Source: Isotricha intestinalis
Lineage: Eukaryota; Ciliophora; Litostomatea; Vestibuliferida; Isotrichidae
Direction of reading: 5' to 3'
NCBI GenBank assembly: GCA_023807065.1
Contig: JAJJLU010000003.1
Location: 24,631 to 88,630, forward strand
DNA: 64,000 nt
Position numbers and translations under genes: made by a program. The notes under the pieces were generated by a model, which saw only the letters and a list, made by a program, of their open reading frames with translations, was not told where the DNA came from and made no database searches. Within the stretch, counting starts at the first letter, position 1, and every line of letters begins with the position of its first letter. Of this stretch, positions 51,916 through 64,000 are shown in pieces.

Positions 51916-53193
51916 ATGTCTCAACAATGTTTTCTTTGTGAGGGAAGAGGTCAAACCTCTGAATTCCCAAACAATCAGGGGAGAAAATTTGAATGTATAT
52001 CATGTAAAGGGGCAAAAATGATTCCAAATACCTATTTAAAGTGCCCTCATTGTGATCATGGATTAGATTATCCATGGCCTAACAAACAAGGAAATCCTCA
52101 AAAATGTAAATTATGTTCAGGCCTCTCATACATAACAACACCTTTAATCCCTTGTCTTAAATGCGATGGTCGAGGTAAACAATATCCATATAATAACTTC
52201 CAAGGAAATCCTACTGAGTGTAATGGATGTAATGGAAAAGGTTATGTTCTCCCTGGAAGTCAAATTAATGTTCAAGGAATGCAAAAGTGCTTTAGATGCG
52301 AGGGTGACGGAAGAATTTATCAATATGAAAATAAATCAGGAGAAGGAAGAGAATGTGTCACTTGTCTTGGATTTAAATTTATTCATCCATTTTTTAAGAG
52401 ATGCTTAAAATGTAATGGAAGTGGATATGATTATCCTTGGCCTAACAAACAAGGAAATAAATACGAATGTAAATTATGTAAAGGGAAAGGTGTTGTTCAA
52501 GGGATTTTTGAAAAATGTGGGAAATGTAATGGAGATGGAAAAATTTATCCTTATGAAAATAAACAAGGAAATCCTAGTGATTGTGATTGTTGTCATGATG
52601 AAGGATATATTTATAAAGGGAATGATACTAATATGGGAAATCAACCTGGTTTTAATAATATGGGAAATCAACCTGGATTTAATAATATGGGAAATCAACA
52701 AGGTTTTAATAATATGGGAAATCAACCTGGTTTTAATAATATGGGAAATCAACCTGGTTTTAATAATATGGGAAATCAATATCAACAAGCATTTAATAAT
52801 ATGGGGAATAATAATATGGGAAATCAACCTGTATTTAATAATAATATGGGTAATCAACAACAAATTCAACCTAATTATAATAATATGGGATTTCAACCTG
52901 GATTTAATAATAATATGGGTAATCAACAACAAATTCAACCAAATTATAATAATATGGGAAATCAACCTGTATTTAATAATAATATGGGGAATCAACAGCA
53001 AATTCAACCTAATTATAATAATATGGGATTTCAACCTGGATTAAATAATAATGGGAAAACAGATAACTGTGGGTATCAAGGAGGTGAAGGTTTACAACCT
53101 AATATTGTTTATCAACAATATCCTATTCAACCTAATGATTTTAATAATCAACCTTATAATATTAATCAATATCCTAATCCTAATTTGAAATAA
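51916..53193 (+). CDS. CxxC-repeat (DnaJ zinc-finger-like) protein with MGNQPGFNN tail repeats
   Basis: In this 425-aa protein residues 1-235 hold twelve CxxC knuckles, several in the CxxCxGxG form (CFLCEGRG, CLKCDGRG, CNGCNGKG, CFRCEGDG, CLKCNGSG, CKLCKGKG, CGKCNGDG). They fall in six pairs separated by a conserved Y-P-(W/Y)-x-N-K-Q-G linker. CxxCxGxG is the zinc motif of DnaJ-type chaperones, but no J domain exists here, so the protein may bind unfolded chains or RNA. Residues 236-380 are tandem repeats of MGNQPGFNN and a longer MGNQQQIQPNYNN variant, a low-complexity Gly/Asn/Gln segment that could promote self-assembly. The first half is less AT-rich than its surroundings. Confidence 0.85.
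   Translation: MSQQCFLCEGRGQTSEFPNNQGRKFECISCKGAKMIPNTYLKCPHCDHGLDYPWPNKQGNPQKCKLCSGLSYITTPLIPCLKCDGRGKQYPYNNFQGNPTECNGCNGKGYVLPGSQINVQGMQKCFRCEGDGRIYQYENKSGEGRECVTCLGFKFIHPFFKRCLKCNGSGYDYPWPNKQGNKYECKLCKGKGVVQGIFEKCGKCNGDGKIYPYENKQGNPSDCDCCHDEGYIYKGNDTNMGNQPGFNNMGNQPGFNNMGNQQGFNNMGNQPGFNNMGNQPGFNNMGNQYQQAFNNMGNNNMGNQPVFNNNMGNQQQIQPNYNNMGFQPGFNNNMGNQQQIQPNYNNMGNQPVFNNNMGNQQQIQPNYNNMGFQPGLNNNGKTDNCGYQGGEGLQPNIVYQQYPIQPNDFNNQPYNINQYPNPNLK
52632..53040 (+). repeat. Tandem coding repeat (27-30-base unit, MGNQPGFNN)
   Basis: The first part has near-identical units encoding NMGNQPGFN. The second part has longer units of about 60-70 bases alternating MGNQPVFNN, MGNQQQIQPNYNN and MGFQPGFNN. Strong nucleotide similarity between units indicates recent expansion. 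Confidence 0.85.
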
Positions 53194-57218: not shown

Positions 57219-59144
57219 ATGGAAAAAAAAAGCGTTGGAATAAAACCAACAAGTTACTACATTGGAATTGACCTTGGTACAACATATTCATGTGTAGCAG
57301 TCTATAGAAATGGAAATGTAGAAATAATACCGAATCAAATGGGAGAAAGAACAATGCCATCAGTTGTATCTTTCACAGAAAATGGAAGATTAATTGGTAA
57401 AGAAGCAAAAAAACAAATAACAAAGAATTATAAAAATACAATATATGATGTAAAAAGATTAATTGGAAGGAATTATAGTGATCCTATAGTTCAGGAAGAT
57501 ATGAAATTATGGCCATTTAAATTAGAAAAAGATAATAAGGATAAAATATTAATATGTGTTGAATATAATAAACAAGAAAAAAAATTTTATCCAGAACAAA
57601 TATCAGCAATGATATTAGAAAGATTAAAAGAATATGCAGAAGATTATTTAAATACAAAAATAAAAGATGCAGTAATAACAGTTCCTGCATATTTTAATAA
57701 TATACAAAGACAAGCAACAATAGATGCAGGAAGAATAGCAGGATTAAATGTGATTAAAATTATAAATGAACCAACAGCAGCCGCTATTGCTTATGGATTA
57801 AATGAAAAAATACAAGGTAAAAGAAATATATGTATTTTTGATTTAGGAGGAGGAACATTTGATGTTACTATTTTAGAAATTAATGATAATAAATTTAGTG
57901 TTAAAGCTACTGGAGGTGATACTCATTTAGGAGGAGAAGATTTTGATAATTTACTTATTAAATTTTGTATGAAAGAATTCAAAAAAGAACATAACATTGA
58001 TTTACAATATGATCAAAAAGCAATTAGAAAATTAAAAGTAGTTGCAGAAGAATGTAAAAAAGAATTATCAGAATCATTAGAATCTTATTTAGAAGTAGAT
58101 TCATTAGTAAAAAATATAGATTTTGGAATAAATATATTAAGAGCAGATTTCGAGAAAGAATGTAAAATATTATCGAAGTGTATAAATGTATTAAATAATA
58201 CATTAAAAGATTCAGGTTTATCAAAAGGAGAAATAGATGATATAGTATTAGTAGGAGGATCAACAAGAATTCCATATGTTCAAAAAATGTTATCAGATTT
58301 TTTTGGAGGAGAAAAAAAATTATTAAAAAAAATAAATGCAGATGAAGCTGTAGCTTATGGAGCTGCAATTGAAGCTGCTTTACATAATGATGAACAAAAA
58401 TATGATTTAAGAGAATTAGAAGTTATTGATGTTTGTCCTTTAAGTTTAGGGATGAAAGTGGAAGGAGATTTAATGGCAGTAATTATTAAAAGAAATACTC
58501 CTATTCCTTGTGAAAAAACAGAAAGTTTTATTACTGTTCATGATAATCAAACTTCTATTTCTATTGAAGTTTATGAAGGAGAAAGACAATTAGTTAAAGA
58601 TAATTTATTCTTAGATAATTTTTCTATTAATAATCTTACTAAAAGAAAAAGAGGTGAAACTGGAATTTATGTTACTTTTGCTATTGATAAAGATTATTCT
58701 ATTTTAAATGTTACCGCAAAAGAACAAAAAGAGAGAATTATACAAAATGATGAAGATGATAGTCTAGAAAAAGTATTAAAGAAAAAAAATCTACAAAGAA
58801 TAAATATCGAAGAAATAAATATTAAAAAAATAGATAATATTGAAACTCGTGAAATTACAAGAAAAAAAAGAAATGAAATGGAAATTGAAAGAATGATACA
58901 AGAAGGATTATCTATGAAAAATAAAGATTTAGAAAAGAGAACAATAATTGAAAAAATAAATAAACTTAAAGGAATTTTATATGATCTGAAAAATGAAAAT
59001 AATCCTCTTTATGAAGATAATAGGAATATAATTGATAAAAAAGTTAATCAAATAAAATCATGGTTAGAAAATCATCAAAATGATAATATTAATGCCTATG
59101 AGGAAAAAATTAAAGAAATCAATGATTTTATTGAATTGTTGTAA
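57219..59144 (+). CDS. Hsp70 family chaperone, divergent C-terminus (copy A)
   Basis: This 641-aa protein has a complete ATPase domain at about 12-395 (GIDLGTTYSCVAVY, VKRLIGRNYSDP, INEPTAAAIAYGL, DLGGGTFDVTILEI, GGDTHLGGEDFDN, VLVGGSTRIPYVQKM) with all nucleotide contacts. The substrate-binding beta domain (about 405-520: VIDVCPLSLGMKVEGDLMAVIIKRNTPIP) and helical lid are shorter and divergent. It has no signal peptide or ER motif and no cytosolic EEVD end, so its compartment is uncertain, probably cytosol. Bases 57422-57953 are identical to the second Hsp70 gene at 60990-61521. No heat-shock element was seen upstream. Confidence 0.93.
   Translation: MEKKSVGIKPTSYYIGIDLGTTYSCVAVYRNGNVEIIPNQMGERTMPSVVSFTENGRLIGKEAKKQITKNYKNTIYDVKRLIGRNYSDPIVQEDMKLWPFKLEKDNKDKILICVEYNKQEKKFYPEQISAMILERLKEYAEDYLNTKIKDAVITVPAYFNNIQRQATIDAGRIAGLNVIKIINEPTAAAIAYGLNEKIQGKRNICIFDLGGGTFDVTILEINDNKFSVKATGGDTHLGGEDFDNLLIKFCMKEFKKEHNIDLQYDQKAIRKLKVVAEECKKELSESLESYLEVDSLVKNIDFGINILRADFEKECKILSKCINVLNNTLKDSGLSKGEIDDIVLVGGSTRIPYVQKMLSDFFGGEKKLLKKINADEAVAYGAAIEAALHNDEQKYDLRELEVIDVCPLSLGMKVEGDLMAVIIKRNTPIPCEKTESFITVHDNQTSISIEVYEGERQLVKDNLFLDNFSINNLTKRKRGETGIYVTFAIDKDYSILNVTAKEQKERIIQNDEDDSLEKVLKKKNLQRINIEEINIKKIDNIETREITRKKRNEMEIERMIQEGLSMKNKDLEKRTIIEKINKLKGILYDLKNENNPLYEDNRNIIDKKVNQIKSWLENHQNDNINAYEEKIKEINDFIELL
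57422..57953 (+). repeat. 532-bp tract identical to 60990-61521
   Basis: Base-by-base comparison of the two Hsp70 genes shows no difference over these 532 bases, including every synonymous position, although both flanks are strongly diverged. Copy 2 is offset by 3568 bases. Confidence 0.95.
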
Positions 59145-59259
59145 AATTATTTATCAATTTGAAACTAGAAGGATAAATAAGTGAAAATTCTTTTTATCTT
59201 ATTTGAAAAAAAATAAATATATTTATTAAAAGTTAAAACTTAAATAATTAAAATAATTT

Positions 59260-59943
59260 TCATTTCTTAAAAATTAGAGCGCATAAACACAATAATAAAA
59301 GAAAAACATATAAAAAAAAGGAAAAAAAAATACTTCCATAAGGGAGAAACTGTATAAATCTAAGGGAGACTAACTCAATAAAAGAATCATCTTCTAATTC
59401 TAAATAATCAATAATAATAAATCCAATTATAATAATATAAACTTCAATTACACTAAAAGCAATTCCAAATAAAAAATATTTATTCCAAATAAAAAAAGAA
59501 AAAACACCTAAAAATATTATTATTGAAATAAATTGAATCAGTAATAAATAAGGAAAAGAAGGATTTTTAGAATTAAATGAATAAATTGATAAAATAATAA
59601 ACCATAAAGAAGAAAATAAATAGAAATAAAAAAAAATATAATATAAAGAATAATTCAAAATAAAAAGATTAAAAGCCATCATTCCTATAATTTGAAAAAA
59701 GTAAATAATTTGATATTTTTTTTTTTCAAATAAGAAAATACAACTTGATACAGTTAAAATTATTAAACATATAATAACTAATAAAAAATCAGGGATAAAT
59801 TTATATAAATTTTTGAATTTAAAAATATTTAGAGTGACAAAACCTATTAATTCTTGAATAAAAAATAATATCCAAGTTTTATAAATATCGCTTCCTTTAA
59901 GAATGAAAAATGATCCTAAAGAAATTTTCTCATTTTTTTCCAT
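59260..59943 (-). CDS. Seven-TM protein, possibly Bax inhibitor-1 (TMBIM) like
   Basis: This 227-aa protein is almost all membrane segments (about seven, from residues 25 to 225). The pattern SSLWFIILSIYSFNSKNPSF and a late YIIIIGFIIIDYLELEDDSFIELVSLRFIQF match the layout of TMBIM/Bax inhibitor-1 proteins ('...TIYAFQTK...' and '...D..L.LY.D...L'), which regulate ER Ca2+ leak and cell death. The match is weak, so the gene is safely only a small multi-pass membrane protein. It lies between two Hsp70 genes but on the opposite strand. The stop is TGA. Confidence 0.6.
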   Translation of the reverse strand: MEKNEKISLGSFFILKGSDIYKTWILFFIQELIGFVTLNIFKFKNLYKFIPDFLLVIICLIILTVSSCIFLFEKKKYQIIYFFQIIGMMAFNLFILNYSLYYIFFYFYLFSSLWFIILSIYSFNSKNPSFPYLLLIQFISIIIFLGVFSFFIWNKYFLFGIAFSVIEVYIIIIGFIIIDYLELEDDSFIELVSLRFIQFLPYGSIFFSFFLYVFLLLLCLCALIFKK

Positions 59944-60092
59944 TTTCCAAATTTAATTCTGAAATATATAACAATAATTTAAAAACAATTATATAAAAAA
60001 ATAAAATCATAAATAAACTTATTAATAAAAAAGTGTGTAAAATTTTTAAAATAATAAATAAAAAAGATAGATAATAATTTAAGTAATTAAAA

Positions 60093-60480
60093 ATGAAAGA
60101 ATTTGGAATAGCAATTGATTTCTGAAAATTAATGACTCATCTATGGGAAGTTTCAATGAAAAAGATAGAATAATAGGTAACGCAACGAAATATCAATTAT
60201 ATAAAAAACATGAAAAAATAATAGTTGATACAAAAAGATGGGTTTAAAATTATAATTAAAACAACAGCAGCCGCTATTCCTTATGGATTAAATGAAAAAA
60301 TACAAGGTAAAAGAAATATATGTATTCATTTGATATTAATTTTTTAGAAATTAATAATAATAAATTTACTGTTAAAGCTACTGGAAGTTATCCAATAATC
60401 AAAAAGCTAAAAAAAGATTAAAAATACATTGTGAAAATAAAAAAAAAGGAATTCTCTTTTCAAATTGAAAATACAATATA
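60093..60480 (+). pseudogene. Hsp70 pseudogene, heavily deleted
   Basis: ATG at 60093 gives MKEFGIAID, then a frameshifted stretch DRIIGNATKYQLYKKHEKII that matches residues 49-68 of the intact gene downstream. A jump follows to TTAAAIPYGLNEKIQGKRN (60260-60318), with only one mismatch over some 65 bases to the conversion tract. A further jump reaches NNQKAKKRLKIHCENK (60394-60440), which matches copy B and not copy A. Internal deletions remove most of the ATPase domain and all of the substrate-binding domain. It is clearly a decayed copy of the downstream gene. Confidence 0.85.
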
Positions 60481-60807
60481 TATTTAGAAAATTGTTGAAC
60501 CAAGGCCAATTCTAATAAAATATTTAATTGGTTTTATTTCAATCTTATTTTTCTCCATTTTATTAATTAGTTGATTATATATTATTATTTGTGCTTTAAT
60601 TATATTAAAAACAGTTTATTTCTATGGTTAATTAAATTATTTTACAAAATATTCATTTAGACCAAATTTTAATATGTTAAATTTTTGATTAAATAAATTT
60701 AAAATAATATAAATTTTTATGTTAATATTTTTAAATCATAACAATTTATTAAATTTTTATTAATTTTTGAATTTTTATTTCAAATAAAAACACCTTTTTA
60801 GAAAGGT

Positions 60808-62592
60808 ATGGAAAAATCTAATTATTGTATTGGAATTGACTTAGGAACAACTTATTCTTGTGTAGGAATTTGGAGAAACAATAGAATTGAAATAATTCAA
60901 AATGAAATGGGTGAAAGAACGATTTCTTCAGTAGTTTCTTTTAACAATGATAAAATTTTAATTGGAGATCTAGCTAAAAGACAAATTATAAAGAATTATA
61001 AAAATACAATATATGATGTAAAAAGATTAATTGGAAGGAATTATAGTGATCCTATAGTTCAGGAAGATATGAAATTATGGCCATTTAAATTAGAAAAAGA
61101 TAATAAGGATAAAATATTAATATGTGTTGAATATAATAAACAAGAAAAAAAATTTTATCCAGAACAAATATCAGCAATGATATTAGAAAGATTAAAAGAA
61201 TATGCAGAAGATTATTTAAATACAAAAATAAAAGATGCAGTAATAACAGTTCCTGCATATTTTAATAATATACAAAGACAAGCAACAATAGATGCAGGAA
61301 GAATAGCAGGATTAAATGTGATTAAAATTATAAATGAACCAACAGCAGCCGCTATTGCTTATGGATTAAATGAAAAAATACAAGGTAAAAGAAATATATG
61401 TATTTTTGATTTAGGAGGAGGAACATTTGATGTTACTATTTTAGAAATTAATGATAATAAATTTAGTGTTAAAGCTACTGGAGGTGATACTCATTTAGGA
61501 GGAGAAGATTTTGATAATTTATTAGTTGAGTTTTGTATTCAAAAATTTAAGGAAGAAACAAATATTGATATATCTAATAATCAAAAAGCTAAAAGAAGAT
61601 TAAAAATAGAATGTACAAAGTTAAAGATTGAGCTATCTTTCATGCATGATGGAAACCTAGAAATTGATTCAATTGCTGAAGGGGAAGATTTAAGTTTTGA
61701 AATAACAAGAAATGATTTTAATAATATATGTGATGCTATATTTAACAAATGTATCAAAGTTTTAAAAGATACAATAAAAGATTCAGGATTATCTAAAAAT
61801 GAAATAGATAAGGTAATATTAATTGGAGGTTCATCAAGAATTCCAAAAATTGAAGAAATGATAATAGAATATTTTAATAGAAATATAATTTTGAAAACAA
61901 TAAATGTAGATGAAGCAGTTGCATGTGGTGCTTCAATTATATCTGCTTTACAAATGAAAATAGAAGATGAAACAATAAATAATATTAATTTTATTGATGT
62001 TTGTCCTTTCTCATTAGGAATAGCTTGTAAAGGAGGATTAATGTCTGTTATTATTAAAAGAAATTCAAGTATTCCAATTAAAATCAAGAAAAAATTTAAA
62101 ACTGTTGAAGATTTTCAAAATAATTTTGTAATTTCTGTTTATGAAGGTGAAAAAAAATTTGTAAAAGATAATTTAAAAATAAGTTACTTTAAATTTGAAA
62201 AAATAAGAATTGCTCCAAAAGGAGAAGTTCAAATTGAAATTACTTTTGAATTAAATTCTAATGGTATATTAAAAGTTACTGGAAAAGAAATAGGAAATGA
62301 TAATGAAAAAGTTTATGAAATTATTATGGAAAAAAGAAAAAAAGAAGAAATTCTAATTGATGGTATTAATAAAATGAATGGAATTGATTTAGAGAATATA
62401 AATGTTATATTAAAACAAAAATTAAATGATATAAAAAGAGAAGAAAATTTTTATAATAAATATAAAAATTCAATTGAAGAAAAATATAATAAAATTCATT
62501 TATGGATTAAACAAAATGATGATAAAAGAAAAGAAGATTATGAAAAAAAAATTAAAGAATTTGATGAATTTATATCAAAATTAAAAAAATAA
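60808..62592 (+). CDS. Hsp70 family chaperone, short divergent form (copy B)
   Basis: This 594-aa protein has a complete ATPase domain (about 5-385) with GIDLGTTYSCVGIW, INEPTAAAIAYGL, DLGGGTFDVTILEI and LIGGSSRIPKIEEM. The substrate-binding beta domain (about 395-510, FIDVCPFSLGIACKGGLMSVIIKRNSSIP) is followed by a short lid ending KKIKEFDEFISKLKK, with no EEVD. It is about 45 residues shorter than a normal Hsp70. Bases 60990-61521 are identical to copy A, but the rest is only family-level similar. Its start is supported by the ATG directly before the conserved N-terminus. Confidence 0.93.
   Translation: MEKSNYCIGIDLGTTYSCVGIWRNNRIEIIQNEMGERTISSVVSFNNDKILIGDLAKRQIIKNYKNTIYDVKRLIGRNYSDPIVQEDMKLWPFKLEKDNKDKILICVEYNKQEKKFYPEQISAMILERLKEYAEDYLNTKIKDAVITVPAYFNNIQRQATIDAGRIAGLNVIKIINEPTAAAIAYGLNEKIQGKRNICIFDLGGGTFDVTILEINDNKFSVKATGGDTHLGGEDFDNLLVEFCIQKFKEETNIDISNNQKAKRRLKIECTKLKIELSFMHDGNLEIDSIAEGEDLSFEITRNDFNNICDAIFNKCIKVLKDTIKDSGLSKNEIDKVILIGGSSRIPKIEEMIIEYFNRNIILKTINVDEAVACGASIISALQMKIEDETINNINFIDVCPFSLGIACKGGLMSVIIKRNSSIPIKIKKKFKTVEDFQNNFVISVYEGEKKFVKDNLKISYFKFEKIRIAPKGEVQIEITFELNSNGILKVTGKEIGNDNEKVYEIIMEKRKKEEILIDGINKMNGIDLENINVILKQKLNDIKREENFYNKYKNSIEEKYNKIHLWIKQNDDKRKEDYEKKIKEFDEFISKLKK
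60990..61521 (+). repeat. 532-bp tract identical to 57422-57953
   Basis: This is the second copy of the identical tract. The left edge is at TATA|AAAGAATTAT and the right edge at TTTA|TTAGTT, where copy A reads CTTATT. Edges fall inside codons and not at a domain border, as gene conversion would leave them. Confidence 0.95.
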
Positions 62593-62739: not shown

Positions 62740-63364
62740 ACTTAAATGGATGTTCTTCAATCAAATTTTTTGTTTCATTTCATTTTTCTGCACAAATTTT
62801 TTTTTTTAAATTTTCTTTTAGTTCAAATTTTATTATAGGATCTTTATTAATATAAATTGCTTTTACTGGATCTCCCTATGTTACTGCTTCGTTTAAATTA
62901 ATTAATTTTTATATTATTTCTCTTTTAAAATAATCTTTTTTTAATTCTTGAATTTTTGGAATTTTGTTGATGATCCTCTCACAAGAATTACATTATCTAT
63001 TTTTTCTTTTGTATTTCTGATTTGTTTATCATATCATTTAATGTACTTATGCATTGATCAAAATATTCTTATAATAAATCATTAAAATCATTTCGATTTA
63101 TATTATATTCATAATTTTATTTAAAGCAGTAAAATCTATATTTATTACTAAGGGAATAGAAAGATTACTTTTTACAATTTCACATTCTATTTTTAATCTT
63201 CTTTAAAAATTTTCTTTGTTTTCTTTTATTAATACTACTGAAAATATTGATAATCATTTAAAAAATATGAGTTTATTTTAACACATTATTTTTATTACTC
63301 CTCTGCATTAATATCTTGTTCCTTAATCTAATCCTATTGCATAATATAATTCTTTTTTATCCAT
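62740..63364 (-). pseudogene. Hsp70 pseudogene on the minus strand near the chromosome end
   Basis: On the minus strand from ATG 63364 the reading is MDKKELYYAIGLD-stop-GTRY-stop-C, matching IDLGTTYSC of Hsp70 with two nonsense changes. Then, after a deletion of some 240 codons, RRLKIECEIVKSNLSI (about 63205-63160) matches RRLKIECTKLKIELSF of copy B. It continues to DNVILVRGSS (about 62998-62970) for DKVILIGGSS, and NLNEAVT-stop-GD (about 62898-62875) for NVDEAVACGA. Order and spacing are correct, so it is a decayed, internally deleted Hsp70 in opposite orientation to copy B. Confidence 0.8.
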
Positions 63365-63987
63365 TTTCAATTATTTTTCTCTTATTTATCATTTTTAATA
63401 ATATGCATTTCTTTTAATTTGTGTGTTTAATGTTCAAAAATTAATTTTATTATTTTAAATAATGATATTATAAAAAAGAAAATAGAAATTGATTTAAGAA
63501 AAAAAATATTTATGCATTACAAAGTTGAAATGATTCATAATAATTTAGGAGAGTGAATATCTCACTAATTATATCTTTTATTAAATCAATTTGATTATAC
63601 TTAAAGGAGATGGTTACATACATTCTTATATGATATTTTTTATTATATAATAAATGAGGATTTGATATATACTTTTAATGTTTCTAAACAAAATTTTTTA
63701 ATTATTAAAGAATGGTATAAAATAATTTAATATATTAAATATACAGTTAGTATTTTATGAAATAAAAAGAATAATTTATGTCCCAAATTCTGGTCATTAT
63801 ACATTCATAAAAGAAATTTATCTATATAAAAAATATTATTATGATAAATTAATTGAATAAACAAAAAATCCTTAAATCTAAAATTTGTTTTTTAATTTTT
63901 AAATTATTATTTTAAGTTATTATTATCTTATTTATTATATTTAAACAAAATAATAAATATTAAATAATTTATTGTATTATAAAAATA
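63365..63987. other. Subtelomeric AT-rich stretch with a possible ubiquitin-protease remnant
   Basis: No intact gene. Around 63782-63857 the plus strand reads PNSGHYTFIKEIYLYKKYYY and ends at TAA. N-S-G-H-Y-T is the active-site His block of ubiquitin-specific proteases. Preceding frames (for example INEDLIYTFNVSKQNFLII, about 63650) are broken by stops and frameshifts. This may be a decayed USP gene, but the similarity is short. Confidence 0.35.
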
Positions 63988-64000
63988 GGGGATTGGGGAT
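63988..64000 (+). repeat. Putative telomeric repeat GGGGATT (about two units, cut by window edge)
   Basis: The window ends GGGGATTGGGGAT directly after non-repetitive AT-rich sequence. It is the only G-rich run of this kind in the window, and the G strand points to the end, as in a right-hand telomere. The unit resembles ciliate TTGGGG with an extra A. Confidence 0.7.

Follow-up and report, generated by a model that had tools for sequence, protein, structure and literature searches.

In yeasts, the Hsp70 genes SSB1 and SSB2 evolve in concert and, in the accessible part of the report, this is attributed to independent conversions in several species (PMC3879978). In Stratiomys, whose clustered hsp70 genes were compared with those of Drosophila, the available text likewise describes conversion within tight clusters (PMC3071340). 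Among the ciliates, what is accessible of the work on the Hsp70 family of Paramecium caudatum gives only tracts of 18 and 53 bp between out-paralogues, and these were doubted by the authors themselves (PMC3606833); for Oxytricha, the portion at hand describes somatic genes in which identical segments lie beside diverged ones (PMC4684698). Here, we analyze two Hsp70 genes, A and B, situated in the last 64 kilobases (kb) of an 88.6-kb contig designated C3 (this whole 64-kb stretch of DNA is called the window below). The two genes share an internal block of 532 identical bases, and we suggest that this block is most likely the product of a known process, gene conversion, in an unusually sharp form.

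The likeness of the A/B locus to the yeast case lies in conversion between Hsp70 paralogues, and to that of Stratiomys in conversion within a tight hsp70 cluster. The extent of the homogenized sequence is different. As far as the accessible passages go, the SSB1/SSB2 tract is the coding region of closely similar duplicates (PMC3879978) and the homogeneity of the Stratiomys genes spans the coding sequences and decays outward (PMC3071340), whereas that of A and B does not go beyond an internal portion of the coding sequence, in genes whose products are only 46% identical elsewhere. In P. caudatum, where ciliate Hsp70 paralogues were similarly examined for conversion, the tracts given are far shorter than the 532 bases found here (PMC3606833). 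The common parts described for Oxytricha are located at the 5' or 3' end (or both) of genes on separate chromosomes, in contrast to a block that is internal and carried twice on one contig (PMC4684698). The literature on conversion involving Hsp70 or ciliates and on ciliate Hsp70 expansion, as represented by titles and the beginnings of abstracts, with most subscription journals outside, contained no such island in a litostome.

Genes A and B (Table 1) have the same orientation on contig C3 and are 3.6 kb apart. The two copies of the block agree at all 532 bases, as the first-pass annotation of this DNA had claimed, and the bases immediately beyond each edge already differ. In steps of 50 bases, A and B agree at 38, 34 and 32 positions to the left of the block, at 43 in the step that straddles its left edge, at all 50 inside it, at 35 in the step across the right edge and at 31 in the one that follows. 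Outside the block the base identity is 70% in the N-terminal flank and 64% in each of the two C-terminal flanks; together with the low protein identity already cited, this bears out the earlier claim of strongly differing flanks. The similarity of the flanks of A to those of B is no greater than that of several other paralogues to either gene. A and B are Hsp70 paralogues that separated long ago and have diverged strongly. Cytosolic Hsp70 proteins have a C-terminal EEVD tail, and this is absent from both C-termini (A ends in IELL and B in KLKK).

In gene A, which was aligned to human Hsp70, the switch lysine and the NEPTAAA and DLGGGTFD motifs fell inside the block; the first phosphate loop (DLGTTYS) and the half of the domain that contains VGGSTRIP both fell outside it. 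The block therefore represents the middle of the nucleotide-binding domain and not the entire catalytic core: the first-pass annotation had correctly extended it to DLGGGTFD in this domain, but had gone too far in speaking of it as the catalytic core. Its further suggestion, that conversion swaps the core and leaves the substrate-binding ends free to evolve, is only a conjecture; a portion of this ATPase domain that includes the first phosphate loop is outside the block. The N-terminal flank is also ATPase domain, and the substrate-binding part is found only in the C-terminal flank.

Inside the block, A and B use the same synonymous codon at all 173 comparable positions, as against 20 of 34, 46 of 68 and 37 of 46 in the other segments; synonymous divergence is thus very unequal along the gene. 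In the same region, 819 other pairs of paralogues have a mean same-codon share of 0.71 and a maximum of 0.91. Selective homogenization alone, which had been put forward as the alternative to conversion, fails to account for these 173 identical codons.

The length of the identical run was compared with those of the other members of the family in this genome, where a profile search gave 63 Hsp70 matches from 53 scored candidates of 202. From 53 Hsp70 frames of the genome, 12 were left out (eight repeats of one gene in overlapping loci, three copies of window genes and one weak frame) and the window genes were reentered as A, B and C; 37 of the resulting 44 frames, those with coverage above 85%, entered the run test. 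Among the 666 pairs formed by these 37 genes, A–B is the outlier, with 445 consecutive polymorphic sites against at most 35 in 300 column shuffles. Chance is excluded as the origin of the identity, because of this run and because the flanks agree at only 64–70% of their bases. There are 59 pairs that exceed all of their own 300 shuffles, but this count is inflated where the sequence is conserved, because the shuffling is uniform; the pair ranked second seems to reflect a shared gap in the alignment. With nine exact runs above 532 bases discounted, each the result of one gene appearing in two overlapping loci, the runner-up to A–B among exact runs of distinct genes in the 53 frames measures 99 bases. 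A family-wide hot spot of conversion was considered and rejected, the exact runs of other pairs being no longer than this. Nor did base composition give a clear signal of conversion biased toward G+C, which makes up 24.2% of the block, 23.9% of the flanks of A and 20.9% of those of B. The 99-base run joins two Hsp70 genes on different contigs, L059 (C1691) and L011 (C1147), and is possibly an older short conversion.

Close counterparts of both genes were present in metagenome data. P0011 (641 amino acids) is 98% identical to A and has A-type flanks, P0001 (595 amino acids) is 98% identical to B and has B-type flanks, and both have nearly the same core; the mosaic is therefore not only an artefact of the present assembly. 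In the phylogenetic analysis, the core and the flanks of these genes gave conflicting trees. In the core tree, A, B, P0011 and P0001 form one group (99/95), and the flank tree places A and P0011 with P0016, P0017, P0007 and P0008 (97/94). A constraint that places the core among A's flank relatives is rejected at p = 4e-38; the flank data reject the core clade (p = 2e-4) and the A+B clade (p = 0.021). The first trees covered the genome frames of at least 400 amino acids (plus gene C) and 30 chosen from 238 metagenome and other proteins, with 65 of 70 rows used; the careful core, flank and half-core trees had 40 rows, picked after the first trees were seen. Several points weigh against too firm a reliance on these tests. 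A and B have identical core rows on both sides of the comparison and were therefore left free, so that the core test in effect held P0011, A's near twin and the row actually constrained. The rejection of the A+B clade is modest, all the p-values are optimistic because the tested groups were named after the first tree, and for the flank tree there is a warning of long branches, among them that of B.

We consider, with high confidence, that interlocus gene conversion between A and B is the best explanation of the shared block. The silent-site identity, the much shorter runner-up of 99 bases and the conflict between the core and flank trees argue for conversion rather than selection on the protein; with its two sharp edges, the block agrees with the conversion envisaged in the first-pass annotation. 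The sequences and the trees show that a stretch of ATPase-domain sequence, 532 bases or more in length, has been copied from one paralogue to the other and both flanks left untouched.

There is moderate support for a first transfer from B to A. In its right half, the core clusters with P0013–P0015 and P0026 (95/97), and P0013–P0015 are the nearest kin of B's flanks in the quick tree (97). The broken Hsp70 copy between A and B matches the block at 139 of 151 bases (next gene 115 of 145) and, after the core, matches B at 43 of 49 (next gene 41 of 49). Other results weigh against this direction: the kinship of P0013–P0015 with B's flanks falls to only 76/81 when the tree is built with more care; of the 22 diagnostic core sites of A, 9 resemble the relatives of B, 10 those of A and 3 neither; the tree of the left half of the core gives no grouping; and rank correlations between similarity in the core and in the flanks fail to tell A from B. 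The stronger proposition that the whole core is clearly of B type was set aside, weakened by the diagnostic sites, the left half and the similarity rankings.

The number of transfers is addressed by residues within the core, where P0011 and P0001 differ at 9 of 177. I110, D223 and S227 are common to A, B and P0011; at these positions P0001 carries P, N and T. N and T are also found at 223 and 227 in P0126, a variant of A whose core sequence is limited to the right end, in all 10 other rows of the residue table and in the broken copy between A and B (codons AAT and ACT). P0011 has four core residues of its own, as against no difference between A and B in 532 bases. We lean moderately toward a repeated conversion, in which a later event would have rehomogenized the block in this lineage; this would account for identical copies despite the differences among related strains. 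On such a two-event history, the second conversion probably went from A to B. A variant within the gene conversion explanation is a single B-to-A event that preceded the separation of this genome from P0011's strain and followed the split from P0001 and P0126. It accounts by one event for the residues common to A, B and P0011, and P0126, covering only the right end of the core, could have a core that is unconverted. It would nevertheless require that P0011 acquired its four residues after a split more recent than the conversion and that, since the conversion, no difference arose between A and B over 532 bases; we consider it a possible but rather doubtful alternative. For the conversion explanation as a whole, the origin of P0001, P0011 and P0126 from contigs of an unspecified sample and an odd lysine run near the end of P0001 are points against.

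Much less probable is an assembly artefact, in which a chimeric join or the collapse of a repeat put the middle of one gene into the other. The identity is indeed perfect over 532 bases in this assembly, and the assembler may have collapsed small differences between the copies. However, P0011 in the context of A and P0001 in that of B carry the mosaic on other contigs with differences of their own, an agreement still compatible with the collapse of a few true differences. Slightly less probable still is that one germline segment was built into both somatic genes by alternative DNA processing during macronuclear development. The genome looks like a ciliate macronucleus and, in the accessible part of the Oxytricha report, such sharing is documented, but there the common parts are terminal and on separate chromosomes (PMC4684698), unlike those of A and B; moreover, the differences between the A-like and B-like metagenome proteins (9 of 177) would be unexpected of one segment if they came from one strain. 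Finally, maintenance of an identical ATPase core by purifying selection or very strong codon constraint can be dismissed with near certainty. In its favor, conservation across the family is higher in the block region (57% of amino acids on average) than in the C-terminal segments (48% and 39%), though no higher than in the N-terminal flank (57%); against it are the sharp edges inside the domain and a silent-site identity far above that of the 819 other pairs.

The block probably originated by recombination repair that used the neighboring paralogue as template. The first conversion would have created an island of near identity within diverged genes, and later exchanges would be confined to this island because the flanks are presumably too diverged for pairing. 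The conversion bridges genes that differ at 30–36% of their bases elsewhere, yet stays in one internal stretch; the published Hsp70 conversions, in what is accessible of those reports, involve whole coding regions of similar duplicates (PMC3879978; PMC3071340). With its diverged flanks and confined tract, the A/B case could therefore illustrate the onset of conversion in diverged genes and what keeps its tracts in place. It also carries the caution that whole-gene Hsp70 trees can be mixtures.

The 238 proteins from searches together with A and B (240 in all) contain 800 pairs with a common run of at least 60 residues and more than 150 aligned residues outside it. In eight of them is the identity outside below 60%: four are among A, B, P0011 and P0001, three combine P0026 with P0013, P0014 and P0015, and one is P0006/P0007. 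P0026 with P0013–P0015 thus makes up a second set of the A/B type, its ends displaced: P0026 has 130–131 identical residues in common with P0013–P0015 and 50–51% identity outside; it equals P0015 throughout positions 148–278 of A, a stretch shifted with respect to the 69–245 of the window, and its flanks are not those of P0013–P0015 (p = 2e-7). This evidence is at the protein level only, and the source contigs might themselves be chimeric. We raise tentatively, as a doubtful generalization, that the ATPase domain has in its middle an exchangeable module in the expanded Hsp70 family of gut-type ciliates: an island of identity made by a first conversion between very diverged paralogues would be reconverted again and again as the remainder of each gene diverges, and would have arisen independently in at least two gene pairs. 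P0026 was considered as the orthologue of A and rejected, since its flanks group with P0006/P0019, at 97 in the quick tree and, in the careful flank tree, at 89/67 within a 97/90 set that includes L059. The metagenome proteins P0006 and P0007 are identical in their first 188 residues and 54% identical in the remainder; they are either another mosaic pair or the product of a chimeric contig.

Table 1. Positions of the Hsp70 genes, fragments, block copies and telomere repeat in the window.
Feature	Position	Strand	Evidence
Hsp70-like gene C, ATPase domain only, 385 amino acids	53246..54403	-	open reading frame; PF00012 7e-109
Hsp70 gene A, 641 amino acids	57219..59144	+	uninterrupted open reading frame; PF00012 4.6e-191, residues 15-637
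Block copy in A	57422..57953	+	codons 69-245 of A; exact identity
Hsp70 pseudogene fragment between A and B	60151..60440	+	blastn and alignments
Hsp70 N-terminal fragment	60493..60558	-	blastn to gene A bases 1-66, 76%, 3.8e-7
Hsp70 gene B, 594 amino acids	60808..62592	+	uninterrupted open reading frame; PF00012 4e-186, residues 8-583
Block copy in B	60990..61521	+	codons 62-238 of B; exact identity
Hsp70 pseudogene fragment, C-terminal half of ATPase domain	62859..63204	-	blastn to gene B 902-1112, 72%
N-terminal Hsp70 fragment resembling gene C	63470..63591	+	blastn 72%, 1.65e-15
Probable telomere repeat start	63988..64000	+	GGGGATTGGGGAT at end of contig C3

The end of the window contains three Hsp70 genes and four broken Hsp70 pieces, and B ends 1.4 kb from the end of the contig. 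A 21-base query of three tandem units of the terminal repeat has 1716 overlapping matches in the genome, and its backward control has 0; among the matches listed, those on the minus strand are all within the first 75 bases of contigs, and those on the plus strand of contig C2 are at its very end. The litostomes include Muniziella cunhai and Balantidium ctenopharyngodoni. For both species CCCCAAT telomeres are described in the accessible part of the literature, and for M. cunhai also the standard code. The G+C content here is 18.9% and there are long frames under the standard code; the 23 stop-to-stop frames of at least 250 residues are ended by TAA (19), TAG (3) and TGA (1). The telomere repeat, the low G+C content and the long standard-code frames suggest that the genome is likely the macronucleus of a gut-type litostome ciliate, with A and B probably near a macronuclear telomere.

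The search for Rfam families at gathering scores gave no match in the window. In viral contigs, gene A had eight pattern matches and no relatives, and a 41-base piece of the block was not found in the contigs of prokaryote genomes. The 63 Hsp70 matches of the genome, which are unsorted, will include ordinary cytosolic, endoplasmic reticulum and mitochondrial members; A itself aside, the distinct frames are 34–61% identical to A. Half of the 40 matches on contigs of known length (20 of 40, out of 63) are less than 5 kb from a contig end. A subtelomeric enrichment of the family is not proposed, the positions on 32 contigs (first place on each) being not clearly different from uniform (p = 0.086). 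Hsp70 frames occur in tandem on several contigs (C659, C924, C943, C970 and C1147), and some frames of the family contain internal stops.

The broken Hsp70 pieces around B (60151–60558 and 62859–63591), on both strands, point to copying and loss that recurred close to the end of the contig. In gene C the substrate-binding part is absent and the nucleotide motifs are altered (DLGRSKYC, FDIGRKLD); with such motifs the gene may be inactive. Adjoining the Hsp70 cluster, at 51916–53193 on the plus strand, is a cysteine-rich protein that, with no J domain among its Pfam matches, has the central zinc domain of DnaJ and a tail of GNQPGFNN-type repeats.

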